From the IMG/VR virus record IMGVR_UViG_3300045125_000085, positions 62,001 through 126,000 of that record: a stretch of DNA of 64,000 nucleotides; one strand, 5' to 3'. This document shows, in pieces, positions 2,110 through 56,621 of the stretch (position 1 is its first letter; every line of letters starts with the position of its first letter). Origin of the DNA: a virus. The notes beneath the pieces were generated by a model, which made no database searches, was not told the origin of the DNA, and saw nothing but the letters and a program-made list of their open reading frames with translations. A program made the position numbers and the translations under genes.

Positions 2110-4114
2110 CTAAGACATATTAATCACATCGGTCTCATGCTTAAAGCTAAAAGTACCATCAGACGCGATGTAGTAATGTCGGCTATTAAGAAAATCTTTG
2201 ACTTCTTGTTGGGCATCAGTAGTGAAACACATAGTCCAACTCAAAGTATCGCCATCGAACCCAATGTCCACGTCTATCCTAGACGCCGGTGCGCAATGAC
2301 ACCCGCCCTGAGTTTCTTCAGGGGGCAGACTATCTCATTACCCTCGCCTCTTCTTGTGGAATAGCGGTCGGGTACTTCCCATTTCGACGCACACTCCTAG
2401 TGCTGTCTACGCCTTGCTGAAGGGCTAGTCGTTGAGCCTACCTCATGCCCTTTTGGGGTTTAGAGGCTTCGCTGCGTGGTTGCCCAATCCTAACCATGCC
2501 GTAATACGACAGGGACTTTTTGACCCGTCACGCTCGCCTTTCAGGCCACGTTGTGGGGGGTTAGGCTCTAAGGGTATTCCCGCAATTAGGAAGGCACTCA
2601 TCTCAGTTTACACCGAGAGAGGGACAATAGTAAGAAAATATGCTACATCATATTAAGCTTACTCTAGTATCGCAGTCAAGACGGCTTAAATGAGGGAGAG
2701 CAGGTGACATAGCGTTTACCCCACCTTCACCCCGTATAGGAAACTCAGGAGCTACTACCTCAGTCTTTTCCCAGCTACTGTCTAATAAGTAGCGTACCTC
2801 AGTCCTCGCTGTCGCTTTGACATGTGGGTAACTCGGGTAGATGCTACCAAACCCAGTAACAGGATAACGCGTCACGTAGCCTGGTAAAGTCGGTGCTCGT
2901 TGAAAGACCGAGATATACAGTAACTCACAAAAGCTCACAGGACGTACATCAGCTCGATTACGCTCAGGTGGTAGTTCATCTATATCTTGGAATAACCTAA
3001 ACGTACCATCTGGCCCAGTATATAAAAGACCAAAATAGCCTTCAGGTAATTCGAGCACATTATGTCTAAGCTCTTCCTCACCAAAGCGATTCAAGACTTT
3101 CTGTAAGCCTTCGTTAGTCATCCACTCATCGTAGACATAACTAGCGACATCTACCCATTTCGGCTTTAAGGTCTTTTTATCGACTAAGACAGCCGGTGAG
3201 TTAGGTCCTTGAAACACTTGACTTAGAAAGCCATTCCTGATATCAAAGAAGACTATAGGTAAAGCACTCTTAAGAAACTGATAGAGTCCTATCACTGACT
3301 GATTAGGATCTAGCAATCTAGGTGAGTCTAAGCTATCGACTTTCTGGATCAGTGCGGTAGCTACATTACGCGTACTGTTAAAGATCTTGCGTGAAGCCCA
3401 CTTACCTAAGATCATTTTACCTTTGCCTTCCATCATCCCTCTAAAGTAATCGTAGATTTCTATAAAGGTCTCTTGCATCTGGTAGCGTACGACATCCATA
3501 GACTCAGGATTATTCTTCAAAGCAGCCGGATCTATCATACCGGCTAAGGAGATCATGCGTTTATATGGCTTATTGATCTCACCTTCTGAAGGTTTACCAT
3601 CTTCATCATACTCGTAGTCTCTTAAACCTGCCGGCAAGATGATTAGCTTATCGATCAGAGGTTGTTCCCTATACTTCTCCACTAGCTTAATGTTAAACTG
3701 TCTAAGTGGACTAGCTCTAGTCTCGAACACGAGCTCACCAAAATGCTCTAAGAAGAAAGTATAGCCTGTACGACCCTCCATAGGCGTAGACTTAATAAAG
3801 TCTCTATTCGTAGCATCCCAGAGAGCATAGCCTTTACCTGAAATAATATCTGCATACAGCTGCTTTAATTCCTTAATGGCTTTAAACAGTACGGGATGCA
3901 GTAGTCCTATATTTAAGCGTACGTAGGAGAAAGTACGGTTACGGCGCTCATCGCCGACTTTACCAAAGATCTCAGTGCTGAATAAGCCGTTAGCTCTATA
4001 GGTACGAGTAGACGGCTCGAAAGTATCGATCGTGGTGACTGGCGGGATACTGCGCACCATCTCCTCAGTCGGTATGAGGATATTGATATTAAAAGGTAGC
4101 ATGTTTACTGACAT
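2110..4114 (-). CDS. Virion RNA polymerase beta-prime-like subunit with DFDGD motif, interrupted by a group I intron
   Basis: Catalytic largest-subunit fragment of a jumbo-phage RNAP (phiKZ gp180/gp80 class). The start is ATG at 4114, preceded by GAGG; an upstream TTG at 4126 is less likely. The N-terminus carries NGLFSTEIFGKVGDERRNRT, matching the beta-prime 'GLF..rIFGp' signature. Exon 1 ends at 2669 in ...HLSRLDCD; exon 2 starts at 2259 with FDGDTLSWTM and stops at 2110-2112. Joining them restores LDCDFDGDTLS, the Mg-binding DxDGD active-site motif, and gives 531 codons with no frame break. Read unspliced, translation stops 5 codons into the intron. It sits upstream of the beta N-terminal gene and is divergent from the giant tail gene with only 41 bp between the two starts. 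Confidence 0.85.
2260..2668 (-). ncRNA. Group I intron (409 bp, no ORF) inside the beta-prime gene
   Basis: The insert has the four conserved group I core elements in order on the minus strand: P as AATTGCGGGAA, Q as CCACGCAGCGAAGCC, R as CTCAACGACTAGCC and S as GAGATAGTCTG. P7 pairs GACTA with TAGTC; P3 pairs TGCCTT with AGGGCA, one wobble. The 5' exon ends in U and the intron ends in G, as group I splicing requires. A candidate guide GUAGCA lies about 20 nt in and pairs with exon UGCGAU apart from one A-G mismatch. Splicing restores the reading frame and the DFDGD motif. It is too short for a homing endonuclease, and none is seen. Confidence 0.93.
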
Positions 4115-4155: not shown

Positions 4156-7100
4156 ATGGCAAAATCTAAAGAAGCTGAACTCGATGATTTCGATTTCGAC
4201 GACGAGCTAGACTTCGACTTTGACGGTCCTAGTGAACCCGGTGAAGATGTAGAGGAAGACTCTCGTAAGCCTATACAGAAGGCTTTTAAAGGTATCCCTC
4301 AGTGGGGCTAAGGACAGAATAGTCTCGACCGAATTTCTCGGTGAGGTGGTCAAAGGCGCTTTGCCGAAAGAATACAGTGAGTCCACTTTATGGGCTCGAC
4401 GGATCAGCCGTAGACCAAGTAGCTAAATTAGCCGGCACTACGACAGAGCTATACCATGACGCGGTCGCTAAGGTCAAGCCTGAGGCTAATCGCGTCTTTA
4501 ACCAGATGTATAAACTGGTACCTACCAGCCAAGTACGTGCACGTGGGTTCTTAGATAAAGTCCGGGGTGCAGTCGGTTTCGACGAAGAACAACAAAGACG
4601 TGCTGAAGTATCTGCCGAAGATCAAGAAATCAGCGATACCTTAGGCAAAATCTTTACTGCGCAAGCAGAGCAAGACTCACAAGAACGTGCTGAAGATCAA
4701 GCAGAAGGACTGATCCAAACAACGATCGAACAGCAACTGCTTTGAATCTGATTCACAGCGATTAGATGCTATCAATGGTAGCTTAGGTCGCTTAGTCGGT
4801 TACAACGATAGAATCAATGCGGCTTATCAAAAGAAGTCTTTAGAATTACAATACCGCTCGTACTTTGTACAAGCTGGTATGGCAAAAAAGATAGCCGAGT
4901 ATTTTGAAGTCTTTAAAGTCCAAGGCGATAGTATCGTCAAGAATACGGCTTTACCGGATTTCGTTAAGCAAAGGGAAAGTGAACGCTTTAAAGAGTTATC
5001 GCGCACTAAGTTTTACGATAAGATCCAGACAGGCTTATTCGGCAGTGGGAGCGGGATAGAACGTGGGATCGCTAAGATTAAAGGACTAATGAAGGAAAAC
5101 ATCGCTGACTTTGTATCAGGGATGAGTGATGCACGAGATGCCATGGGTGACATCTATGATGCCCAGGATATGCTAGGCAGTATGGACATGGGTGATGGTA
5201 AGAAGACCTCGGCGATGGATATGGCCATGGACATGGGTGTGGATATGGGCGCCGGCATGGTCGGTAAAGCTGGTGTCAATTCCTTAGGCCGCAAAGTCGC
5301 TGAAAAGATCCGTAACAAAATGACCGGCAATAATCCGCTATTAACGGATTTTGCTAAGAAGAGCATGAAGTACGGGACGGATATCCCGGCCAGCTTACGT
5401 GAACTAGCGCGTTCAGATGCCTTGAAAGTTTCTAGTGAGGAACTTAATGAAGGCGGTATCATGAACGCCATGAGACGGAATGGTAAGTATGGTCTTAAAA
5501 ACATCATTAGCTTATTTACCGATACCACTGATACAACTATCGATCAAGGCGAGGGCTTCACCGATCTGACTAAGCCAGCTATCTTTGATGTAGTCACTAA
5601 GCGCAGTATCGATAATATCATACCTGGCTACTTAGCACGTATTTTAAGAGAAGTCCAAGTATTCCGTACTGGTGATGAGACGATTTCTTTAACGGAGTTC
5701 GATCATGGCTCTAATCAGTTCATGGATCGTAAGAAGATAGTGCGCTCTATTAAGAAGCTCATGCAGCGTACGATAGCTGGTGATGATGTCAAGCGTCGCT
5801 TTACTGAGTTAGAGCAACAAATAGGTTTAGAGTCATTTTCACCAGAAGCACAAAAAGCTTTACGCACGATCATGTCGAATACGATTTCAGATCGTAATGC
5901 CGGCATCATCGATAGTAAGACTTTTATGGATGAAAAGCATTATCGCGATTTAGATCCTAATGTCGCTGAAGAGATACAGAGCTAAGTTAAAGCAACGCTA
6001 TGACTTAGGTGCAGAAGGCTATGAGGATGAAAACTACAAGCTCAATCAGAAAGCGACCTTAGCTCGTAAAGCATCTGCGTGGACCGCAAGGACATATGGA
6101 GCAGCTAGTCCGTCTCGGACGTAGAGACATATTAAAGGAGATGGGCTTACTGACTGAAGGCGGTGGCGGTTATGCTGCTGTCGTAGGTGAGTTAGAGAAA
6201 GTACCGCGTAAGTTTCGTAAGGAGTTTACGGAAGCAGCTAAGAAGATGCAGTCAGGCGATAGCATCTATGACTTAATCTCAGAGAAGACTAAGACCAAGA
6301 TACAGGAAGACCCTGGTAAGCTGTTTGAGATCATGCGAGATATCGACGCTAAGTTTGAAGGTAGCGGTAGACAGCTAGTAATGGATTATGAAGGTTATCA
6401 GCGCTTCTTAGCCAACCAGCTCTCCGGTGCTGAAGAAGATGACGGCAATGACACTGGCGTAGAAGCCTCTTCAGCCTCTGAAGTCATAGCTAGACGACCT
6501 ACTGCGATACCTACGCGTCGTCGTGTCGCACGTACACCAGGTGTACCGCGTACTGCTAGACGTACTGGACCGCGCACTGTCGCTCAGACTTCTGCACCCT
6601 TACCGACTGTCGCTGAGATATTACCGACCGATACCAGCCACACCTACGACCTTAGCATCGACAGCACCACCACCAGTAGTCATGGCAGAGGACGCGAGTG
6701 ATAAAATCGTCACTGCCTTAGACCCTATAGCTGGTAGCTTAGTAGAGATTAGAGACTTATTAAAAGCCCGACCTATGACATCGATAGGTGTCACAGGTGG
6801 GTGGACTATGCCGATCTATAGATGCATCTAACTTCAGCATAGGTAATCTGCAAAACGTAGCTAAACAACGCATGGATGAAGGTGTACAATATGCCAGCAA
6901 CTAGCAGAGCAACATGTACCTGAAGCAGTCAGATCGCAAGTCAGTGCTGGTATAGATCGCGTCCGCGATACTAACCTAGATAGCATCATGGAGGATTTAC
7001 AAGGCGTCATCGACCTGGTAGGAGAGATGACAGCTGGGGAGATGAAGCAGAACGCTAGTAACGCATATGAAAATGCTCGGTTTACATTAGTCGATAATGC

Positions 7101-10100
7101 TAGTAAGTCATACGAGCGCTTACCGGAAAATGTGCGTACTCGTTTAAACAATGTGTCGCAGACGGTAACGCAAACAGCGACTGACTTAGGTCAAAGAACA
7201 GTCGCTCAAGTCGAAGCCCATTTACCAGAGAATGTCAAAAAGCAGTTAGAGTCTTTACCAAGTGAAGTCAGGGCTCAGGTAGAATCTGCCTATAAACGAC
7301 TCAAGGAAGGTGAAAAGCTACAGAACTTAATTCCAGAAGAGACGAAGAAGCGGATCGAAGCACTGCCTACCGATATTCGTACTAAAGCCAATGAGATTAT
7401 TGGTAAGATACAGTCGACAGAGTCGGTCCATGACTGGGTAGCTCCGGAGACAATAGAGGAATGGAAAAATCTGCCCGGTCATTTACAAGAGCAGTTTTCA
7501 AAAATACCAGATGTGGTCAGTGCTAGATTAAGCTCTAATGCTGCAGAGCAGACCTGATCTTTTTGCCGACGGAAGCACTCCTGTCGGAGCGACAAGGCTG
7601 CCATCTATCAATCTGCCTAGAATACTCGCACCTACGGCTAGCTGGGTAGAATCGATACAGCAGCAAGTCGGCAATAAAATCCCTACAGCTATTAGGAAGT
7701 CTAACACCAAGCTCCAATGCTGCAGAGCAGACCGATCTTTTTGCCGACGGAAGCACTCCTGTCGGAGCGACAAGGCTGCCATCTATCAATCTGCCTAGAA
7801 TACTCGCACCTACGGCTAGCTGGGTAGAATCGATACAGCAGCAAGTCGGCAATAAAATCCCTACAGCTATTAGAAGTCTAACACTAAGCTTCTAATGCTG
7901 CAGAGCAGACCGATCTTTTTGCCGACGGAAGCACTCCTGTCGGAGCGACAAGGCTGCCATCTATCAATCTGCCTAGAATACTTCGCACCTACGGCTAGCT
8001 GGGTAGAATCGATACAGCAGCAAGTCGGCAATAAAATCCCTACAGCTATTAGAAGTCTAACACCAAGCTCTAATGCTGCAGAGCAGACCGATCTTTTGCC
8101 GACGGAAGCACTCCTGTCGGAGCGACAAGGCTGCCATCTATCAATCTGCCTAGAATACTCGCACCTACGGCTAGCTGGGTAGAATCGATACAGCAGCAAG
8201 TCGGCAATAAAATCCCTACAGCTATTAGAAGTCTAACACCAAGCTCTAATGCTGCAGAGCAGACCGATCTTTTTGCTGACGGAAGCACTCCTGTCGGAGC
8301 GACAAGGCTGCCATCTATCAATCTGCCTAGAATACTTCGCACCTACGGCTAGCTGGGTAGAATCGATACAGCAGCAAGTCGGCAACAAAATCCCTACAGC
8401 TATTAGAAGTCTAACACCAAGCTCTAATGCTGCAGAGCAGACCGATCTTTTGCCGACGGAAGCACTCCCTGTCGGAGCGACAAGGCTGCCATCTATCAAT
8501 CTGCCTAGAATACTCGCACCTACGGCTAGCTGGGTAGAATCGATACAGCAGCAAGTCGGCAATAAAATCCCTACAGCTATTAGAAGTCTAACACCAAGCT
8601 CTAATGCTGCAGAGCAGACCGATCTTTTTGCCGACGGAAGCACTCCTGTCGGAGCGACAAGGCTGCCATCTATCAATCTGCCTAGAATACTCGCACCTAC
8701 GGCTAGCTGGGTAGAATCGATACAGCAGCAAGTCGGCAATAAAATCCCTACAGCTATTAGAAGTCTAACACCAAGCTCTAATGCTGCAGAGCAGACCGAT
8801 CTTTTTGCCGAATCCTCTTCTGAAACACAGATACCACCAACTAGTTTAATAAACCGACTTAAGTCTATTAAGCTTAACGGATTGATCTGTGCCTTTATTG
8901 AGCACTATGGCTACAGGTGCAAGTGCAGTTTCAGGCATACCTATCGGTTTAATGTCTCAACTGTTAGGTTCTTTTAAGAACCTTCAGTCTCATCGACCAC
9001 CTCCTCTTCTGAGCACAGTCATCTGCCGCATCGCCAGAGATTAGCGGTACTGAGCAAGGTTTGTTTAAAGCATGGCGTGATAAATTAGCGTTTGATAAAT
9101 TAAAAGAACTCAAGCCTAATATTGTGCTACATCTAAAATAAATTGGTCCAAAGGTGTCGGACAGGGTGATGCTGGTGCCGACGACGCCAGTGAAGACCAA
9201 TTGGCTGATCCACTCCATGCAACCTACACCGGCTCCACCGGTCCAAGAGAGAGAAGCCAAGAGCGATTAAGCGTGTATTAAAGACTACGCGAGGTATTGA
9301 TAGAGGTTATCGAAACTTAGCTGGTAAAGCGATCATGGGTGCTCCTGGTTTTGCACTCAAAACTTTAGGTAATACGTATAAGTACGGAGGTAAAGCTTTA
9401 CTAGGACTCGGTGAATTTGGCGCTATGTTCGCTAGTGAAGCGATTAAAGGCCATTTAGGTATACCGGATAGTCCAGCACTTATGATGACTACGATGCCTA
9501 GACGAGGCTGGATCGCCAAATACTCAACCACAGGAAGCTACCGAAGGTCAAGCTACCGAAACTACTAATAAGCCTAAGGATGGTATCTGGAACCGTGCTG
9601 TAAAGAAGATGGCGGATACTGTAGGTAAAGGTAAGGAGATACCTACTGCTACTGTTACCGATGTATTGAAACGCTTAACTGCTGAAAGAGCACTCAATGA
9701 AGATAATCAAGATCCTGCTCAGACTCAACGCCATTTATCGCAGTTGCAGACTTTAGAGTTTGTTAACACTGCTTTCAGCAAAGAAAAAGAGGCGATAGTG
9801 AAGGTCAAGCTACCGAAGGTCAAGCTACCGAAGGTGAGGAAAAGAAGACAGCTTACAATGATACAGATCATAGCGGGGAGCGAGATGGTAGCTGGAAGGA
9901 TAGGATCAAAGACTCGATGCGCGTGGCTTTAAAGGTGAGATGCCTAAAGAAGCTGAGGTCAAATATAAGCCTGATAAGAACGTCATTGACTTAATGGCTA
10001 AGAAAGCAAAAGAGGTAATGGATAAACTCAAAGGTAATGCCGATAGCGTCAAGGAAGGATTAGAAGATGCTGCTGAAGATCTGCTCGATAGCGATAATGA

Positions 10101-47379: not shown

Positions 47380-47835
47380 ATGCAAACATACACTCACGTT
47401 GTAGTATTGTCTGATGATAAAATCATTGGTTTTTCTACAGTAGCTGCTTCAGAATATTCTGATCGTAACCATGTTGCGTTGGATAAAGCAATAACACCTT
47501 TTATCGACGATCATCTTCATTATCAATATAAGAATGGTGAGGTAGTTTATTCACCAAATAGTGATATTAATGACTCACTAGACATCTACTCTTACGCGGC
47601 AGTGGAGACTGGAGTGGAGACTGGTGATAGTTTGATATCTGGATTAGTTAGGCGTTCAGATAGCGCAGAGTTTTTCGACACACCGGTAACAATAGTGCCG
47701 CTGACTACTACTATCAATACTAATTACGACGATATAACTAATTTTGTCTATGTCGATGGCGTGGTTAAGTATGATGTAGAGGCAGCAAGATTAGCACTTC
47801 AAGCTAAGTTAGCTCAAGAAGATCAAGCGATATAA
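47380..47835 (+). CDS. Small tail-fibre-associated protein (assembly chaperone candidate)
   Basis: Intact 151-residue ORF from ATG 47380 with AGGTGA upstream (MQTYTHVVVLSDDKIIGFST). KAITPFIDDHLHYQYKNGEV and DDITNFVYVDGVVKYDVEAA precede a C-terminal helix RLALQAKLAQEDQAI. Small proteins with a beta N-part and a C-terminal helix directly behind a fibre gene are often fibre assembly proteins; this is inference from position. It is AT-rich like the preceding gene and ends at a 22-bp terminator. Confidence 0.6.
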   Translation: MQTYTHVVVLSDDKIIGFSTVAASEYSDRNHVALDKAITPFIDDHLHYQYKNGEVVYSPNSDINDSLDIYSYAAVETGVETGDSLISGLVRRSDSAEFFDTPVTIVPLTTTINTNYDDITNFVYVDGVVKYDVEAARLALQAKLAQEDQAI

Positions 47836-47837
47836 GT

Positions 47838-47891
47838 ATAGCCTATACGGCATAAGGGGGGGTTTTAGCCCCCCTTATGCCGTATAGGCTA
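47838..47891. terminator. Very long perfect hairpin terminator
   Basis: A 22-bp perfect stem (47840-47861 with 47869-47890) containing TATACGGCATAAGGGGGG, a TTTTAG-type loop and flanking AT-rich ends; it separates convergent genes ending at 47835 and 47901. Confidence 0.9.
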
Positions 47892-47900
47892 TTTATCTCA

Positions 47901-56397: not shown

Positions 56398-56495
56398 AAT
56401 ACACCTCCTTGGGTGTTGGCTCTAAGCCCGAGCAGACCTAGAGTATTGATGGATAGCCTGCTTATGCAGGCTTTGGTTCATGCTTACTATGTGGG
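56398..56495 (-). ncRNA. Structured 5' leader (three hairpins)
   Basis: On the minus strand: AGCCTGC/GCAGGCT hairpin; CTCTAGG/GCTTAGAG with loop TCTGCTCGG; and ACACC/GGTGT around AAGGA, placing the SD in the loop. The architecture matches leaders at 55482-55585 and 19467-19577. Confidence 0.65.
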
Positions 56496-56522
56496 ATTAT
56501 AGCTTTTTGCATTTCAAAAAGA
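56490..56522 (-). promoter_or_regulatory. Phage promoter-like element
   Basis: On the minus strand AATGCAA, then AAAGCTATAAT, then CCCACATAGTAAGCATG. It matches the other three elements with two substitutions in the CCCATATA block. Confidence 0.5.
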
Positions 56523-56529
56523 AAAGTAG

Positions 56530-56572
56530 AAGCATATAGCCCAGATAGCTTTAGTGCTCTCTGGGCTATATG
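56530..56572. terminator. Hairpin terminator of the CATATAGCCCAG class
   Basis: CATATAGCCCAG and CTGGGCTATATG form a 12-bp stem around a TAGC/GCTC inner region. It insulates the 56668 gene unit from the cassette promoter. Confidence 0.85.
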
Positions 56573-56621
56573 TCAGCTTAATTTACTATTCGTCATCGCA
56601 CATAGTACACCTCGGTATAAA

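Follow-up and report, generated by a model that had tools for sequence, protein, structure and literature searches.

The window analysed here, a 64-kb (64,000-nucleotide) stretch of a viral record of 144,006 bases, carries near one end a gene for an RNA polymerase beta-prime N subunit that is interrupted by a group I intron. All features of this locus lie on the minus strand. Exon 1 (2669-4114) is one open frame of 482 codons, which begins with the ATG at 4114-4112 and ends, in the codons CTT GAC TGC GAT, with the first Asp of the motif DFDGD. The intron follows as 409 nucleotides at 2668-2260. Exon 2 (2110-2259) then opens in frame at 2259 with TTC GAT GGC GAT and supplies 49 codons, FDGDTLSWTM...VINMS, before a TAG stop at 2110-2112. 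The insertion is in phase 0, between D482 and F483. At the junctions the exon reads ...CTTGACTGCGAT, the intron ACTAGAG...GACATTGGG and exon 2 TTCGATGGCGAT; neighbouring bases differ on both sides, so the junctions have no room to slide. U is the last base of the upstream exon, and G (omega-G, at 2260) that of the intron. Removal of the intron gives the junction ...GCGATTTCGATGGC, restoring LDCD/FDGDTLS in a single 531-codon frame, and the ligated exons are predicted to read ...GACTGCGATTTCGATGGCGAT. A preliminary description had placed an ORF-less group I intron at 2260-2668, with the same terminal bases and the same restored frame, and its coordinates proved exact.

The spliced protein matched the family phrog_2986, 'RNA polymerase beta subunit' (PHROG 2986), over residues 1-530 in one stretch (599 bits, E 1.1e-179), the match carrying on through exon 2 to its end. 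With the spliced protein as a tblastn query, 291 phage records were matched; in 277, a single place covered 80% or more of the query. D482, D484, G485 and D486 were invariant in an alignment with 12 jumbo-phage homologues. A search for a solved structure detectable from the protein sequence found none. Among annotated proteins the closest relatives are subunits of the phiKZ gp180 type, PhiPA3 gp212 being annotated as similar to phiKZ gp180; according to the literature, such subunits are located in the virion. The gene order of 12 cultured phages (a divergent tail/lysozyme gene, beta-prime N, beta N) is also that of the window. The full-length family match and the gene order identify the gene as that for the beta-prime N subunit of a virion RNA polymerase, phiKZ gp180 type. 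In both polymerases of jumbo phages beta-prime is split after its DPBB domain (PMC7598289), which explains why exon 2 has just 49 codons.

Downstream lies the gene for the beta N-terminal subunit (phiKZ gp178 type; 1-2086, start at 2086). Frame 0 of the beta-prime gene reads on beyond the TAG at 2110-2112 (MS*PALPDKP), and a recoded stop or frameshift was considered there; it was rejected, as neighbours show a normal beta-prime N end and beta N starts at 2086. The beta N gene is broken into five frame pieces, four of which, within 2086-259, match phrog_3148 collinearly, at positions 2-105, 119-288, 356-472 and 479-621. Of the other ORFs in the window many are short, and the frame breaks look like single-base indels from a long-read assembly. 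Frame breaks in the very next gene mean that some intron base could be wrong. Elsewhere in the window, a tandem array at 7530-8811 (177-nt unit, 7.2 copies, 98% identical) sits in a divergent structural/tail-type reading frame, with frames shifting between copies. Sub-threshold Rfam matches to microRNA and plastid families at 47828-47900 and 56495-56579 were set aside as chance or repeat matches; at 47828-47900 the microRNA-family matches of the two strands coincide, which most likely marks an inverted or low-complexity repeat.

The insert was identified with Rfam. It matched the group I intron model RF00028 at 2306-2641 with 59.8 bits (E 1.2e-12), above the gathering score of 50 bits and complete over model positions 1-253. 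RF00028 was the only family above threshold in the window, and this was the only intron match in the whole record. The 409 bases have a G+C content of 52% and contain no ORF; each of the three frames is closed by stops, the earliest of which comes within ten codons of the junction. An unspliced transcript would hence be read to a stop ahead of the complete catalytic motif. A DNA-level search with the intron and its flanks against 50,697 phage records gave no match.

Folded on its own, the window copy had an unremarkable minimum free energy (z -1.3), and covariation was therefore used, in an alignment of the window copy with ten homologous ORF-less introns from the same and neighbouring positions. 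The covarying structure comprised helices P2, P3, P4, P5, P6, P7, P8 and P9, of which P3 and P7 form a pseudoknot, with 47 pairs and 95.9% of cells paired; two-sided changes were seen at 29 pairs (104 cells). None of 500 shuffles reached any of five measures, which excludes chance, and sliding the partners lowered pairing to 39-47%. P2 is a hairpin, UCUCGGU/ACUGAGA (2601-2618), found by consensus fold and covariation. The P3 5' strand CCUUCC (2589-2594) pairs with GGGAAG at 2375-2380, with one C.A mismatch in the window copy. In this copy P4 (UGCGGG at 2579-2584, partner 2473-2478) has a single mismatched pair and, where U-A is usual, a compensatory G-C of its own. The guanosine-binding helix P7 (GACUA at 2426-2430 with UAGUC at 2328-2332) is perfect, was 100% paired across the alignment and has two pairs with two-sided changes. 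P8 (UACCC/GGGUA, 2339-2374) and P9 (2304-2327) also covary. Core elements with P3 and P7 pairings had been proposed beforehand from the letters of this one sequence, and they reappear here as a covarying core.

Between P7 and P3 lie hairpins at 2386-2425, seen in the consensus fold and with two-sided changes, that resemble P7.1 and P7.2. In the usual classification P7.1 and P7.2 mark subgroup IA. The intron is thus IA-like, an assignment made at the level of IA as a whole and not of IA1, IA2 or IA3. At the 5' splice site, the P1 5' strand (2658-2671) consists of exon GAU and intron ACUAGAGUAAG, which pairs with CUUACUAUUGUC; the intron-side extension was paired by inspection and the exon part by scan. 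The P1 3' strand, also located by scan (2622-2634), holds the internal guide sequence GUCC, whose G at 2625 faces the splice-site U. Exon GAU against guide GUC gives only three base pairs in addition to the intron-side extension, with U.G at the splice site. The score, the covarying P3-P8 core, P7, the splice-site U.G and the terminal G together confirm that the insert is a group I catalytic intron.

To place this intron among relatives, IMG/VR was searched with three alignments of cultured-phage proteins, since the exon-1 protein alone gave no matches to viral contigs as a query. The best 80 of about 280 matches per query were taken, and reduction to non-identical loci left 128 beta-prime loci, 12 of them from cultured phages. 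The gene reads DxDGD without the 409 bases in 115 of the 128, leaving a gap at the insertion point, as the preliminary description had expected of homologues. The other 13 are broken exactly at the motif, and four cultured phages are also interrupted in DxDGD; no interruption elsewhere in the beta-prime gene was seen among the 128. The earlier idea that cultured phages are uninterrupted at the motif had to be dropped in view of Vibrio VP4B, Aeromonas PS1, the EL-like phage GXNNE2 and Bacillus PBS1, and two further loci (L181 and L238) were removed as start-of-alignment artefacts. Junctions were resolved in 12 of the 13 interrupted loci, where splicing restores a full-length protein with the usual C-terminus. 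The DFDGD site is a recurrent hotspot and not a one-off, and the hotspot is the interesting part of the finding.

This recurrence bears on the quality of the sequence. The contig has many apparent single-base indels and an adjacent gene in five frames, and a sequencing or assembly error might be suspected of having put 409 foreign bases into the gene. We regard this as extremely improbable, as homologous introns with the same core occupy exactly this junction in nine contigs that are independent and come from different samples (L020, L021, L055, L124, L152, L160, L165, L167 and L239). The structure of the insert is moreover that of a covarying ribozyme, and its removal restores the frame.

The insertions fall in six registers spread over 12 nucleotides. 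Besides the window and those nine contigs at D/FDGD, introns split the Phe codon itself, after its first nucleotide in L081 and L142 and after its second in L051. L020 and L021 each have another intron at DFD/GD, where that of L054 probably lies too; among the cultured phages this is matched by DxD/GD in GXNNE2 and PBS1. PS1 is interrupted at DFDG/D and VP4B after the motif, at DYDGD/. Rfam group I matches were found at the motif in L020 and L021 (two each), L051, L055, L124, L142, L152, L160, L165, L167, L239, VP4B and PBS1. L081, L054, PS1 and the EL-like phage fell below threshold, with core elements visible by eye in all except PS1, whose intervening sequence we infer to be an intron from the reading frame. 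The intervening core of the EL-like phage resembles that of VP4B. In every intron scanned, the guide G lies 37-40 nucleotides upstream of an AAUUGC core, and the guide shifts with the register: GUCC at D/F (exon GAU), GAUC or GGUC at one nucleotide into Phe (exons GAUU and GACU), GAGUC at two nucleotides (exon GACUU) and GUCG at DFD/GD in L020 and L021 (exon CGAU). These shifts give independent support for the splice sites. The intron tree was poorly resolved and fits a shift of register or independent arrival alike.

Some of these loci merit separate mention. In VP4B (L245, 4447-4943), PS1 (L246, 4459-4716) and the EL-like phage (L247, 4450-6221) the beta-prime sequence is annotated as separate genes; each pair is most simply read as a single gene with an intervening sequence at DxDGD. 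In PBS1 (L248), a group II intron (RF02004/RF00029) follows TRYPIEQYRM and a group I intron lies at GDYD/GD, and the intervening stretches at 6118-7615 and 9329-9640 both have annotated homing endonucleases. In L054 (intron at DFD/GD, 6352-6840) the 3' exon seems to be without the codons GGTGAT (CTGACAATATCC), as though the sequence between ACAATA repeats, active-site Gly-Asp included, had been deleted.

Two-gene annotations of this kind could also be taken at face value for the window. The intron would then no longer splice, and beta-prime would be a pseudogene or be made as two separate polypeptides. The stop within ten codons and the single mismatches in P3 and P4 would fit such a dead insertion. 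We nevertheless consider it very unlikely: exon 2 is in frame and matches its family to the end, neither the core nor P7 is disrupted, and exon 2, 49 codons long, offers no start codon ahead of the motif. Two polypeptides would moreover divide the metal-binding Asp triad between them.

In L020 (7447-8342) and L021 (7447-8200), two group I introns flank an exon of six nucleotides, TTCGAT (Phe-Asp), so that three exons together encode DFDGD. Short exons enclosed by introns are reported for phage phiNIT1 (PMC11878797), and placozoan mitochondrial cox1 has a one-base exon (PMC5436844); a two-codon exon is thus rare and not unprecedented. The beta-prime intron of L020 at 7447-7972 also shares an identical block of about 85 nucleotides across P4-P6 with an intron in the beta gene of the same contig (11689-12250), which suggests exchange between introns at the catalytic sites of both genes. 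By a motif scan, the Asp-Asp site of beta that is occupied in PhiPA3 holds an intron in 5 of 13 loci with an interrupted beta-prime gene against 10 of 103 with an uninterrupted one (Fisher p 0.013, ignoring the relatedness of the loci). Taken together, these observations may mean that the 15 nucleotides of DFDGD act as a landing pad for related group I introns in many registers. The introns would take six positions within 12 nucleotides, with guides shifting to suit and sometimes two introns leaving three exons, the middle one of two codons. The same family would occupy the Asp-Asp site of beta in the same genomes, with sequence exchanged between the two sites, and the virion polymerase would be made only through repeated splicing at both sites. 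We favour this joint reading, with somewhat more for it than against it.

The distribution of introns at the cognate site is patchy. On a FastTree protein tree with some long branches, the 17 intron-bearing rows among 132 require at least 14 changes of state. The introns of L020 and L021 are 86% identical and their exons 74%; this is consistent with transfer, to which structural constraint could contribute. In the introns of L051, L160, L165 and the EL-like phage, loop L1, which precedes the core, contains ORFs that match HNH_3. The window intron encodes no endonuclease, the feature by which a homing intron is recognised, and a search of the 144-kb record, an indel-rich fragment, for HNH, HNH_3, GIY-YIG and LAGLIDADG_3 genes found none. 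It is a fair inference that this copy, if mobile, would move with help in trans or that it has lost its ORF.

The element might also be beneficial and not merely selfish. Splicing might delay or gate the virion polymerase, or the intron might guard its site against homing endonucleases of rival phages. A homing site, once occupied, is immune to cutting, and the DFDGD site has been occupied repeatedly. In PhiPA3, the endonuclease encoded by the intron of the adjacent beta gene gives the phage an edge in competition with phiKZ (PMC11620839). Such a benefit is nonetheless doubtful for the window intron, as none of the four endonuclease families was found in it or elsewhere in the record, and most relatives do without the intron, which indicates that it is dispensable.

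The explanation that we favour is a self-splicing element that would have arrived by homing. In the pre-mRNA, the exon end GAU would pair with the guide GUC, placing U.G at the cut, and a guanosine docked in P7 would attack the 5' site. The freed exon would then attack past the terminal G, joining the exons as LDCDFDGD. Because the unspliced reading stops within ten codons and has no catalytic triad, the virion polymerase needed for the next infection would depend on splicing. The ancestral element probably had an HNH_3 endonuclease gene in loop L1, like relatives at the same or neighbouring positions. The window copy would either have lost this gene or have been copied in with an endonuclease acting in trans. 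Reasoning from sequence comparison, we give this whole explanation, an IA-like intron at D/F of DFDGD in a phiKZ-like phage with splicing required, arrival by homing and an HNH_3 ORF lost or replaced by help in trans, a probability of about 0.94.

That group I introns occur in jumbo-phage RNA polymerase genes and prefer conserved sites is already established, and the preliminary description invoked both. The preference is documented (PMC2814812), introns in AR9 have been mentioned (PMC5312081), and in PhiPA3 a group I intron follows two conserved Asp codons of beta, with an HNH enzyme that nicks the phiKZ homologue (PMC11620839, Birkholz et al. 2024). The PhiPA3 intron (gp210, in the beta gene gp211/gp209) is like the window intron in being of group I and in interrupting catalytic-region Asp codons of the same virion polymerase in a phiKZ-like phage. 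It differs in lying in the beta gene and encoding an HNH endonuclease, whereas the window intron lies in DFDGD of beta-prime and has no ORF. GXNNE2, VP4B, PS1 and PBS1 share interruption within DxDGD of the phiKZ gp180-type subunit but differ in register, and their annotation shows no more than separate genes; in PBS1 the group II intron lies upstream as well. Introns of the T4, SPO1 and Twort type and those of Bastillevirinae (PMC11878797) are likewise IA-like and sit in conserved codons of essential nucleic-acid genes. Self-splicing is proven for the Bastillevirinae introns, which also enclose small exons. These introns lie, however, in DNA polymerase, ribonucleotide reductase and terminase genes and not in a multisubunit RNA polymerase. 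In an incomplete literature collection, we found no paper describing a hotspot at DFDGD of beta-prime.

Because the codons for the catalytic Asp residues tolerate no change, an intron inside them can be neither dodged by mutation nor lost imprecisely, and the DFDGD intron is a clean natural example of this logic. The six registers within 12 nucleotides offer a testable series for how introns move, whether by homing, by reverse splicing or by drift of the guide sequence. The two-codon exon of L020 and L021 lets one ask in which order two ribozymes splice when they share six exon nucleotides. Finally, in zeta-group crAss-like phages the DxDxD motif of the RNA polymerase is disrupted, and the mechanism of expression was left open by the authors (PMC7886860). 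That polymerase is interrupted in the same catalytic motif as the window gene and differs in being of an unrelated single-chain type. The DFDGD introns suggest a concrete explanation for broken DxDxD motifs in other phage polymerases.
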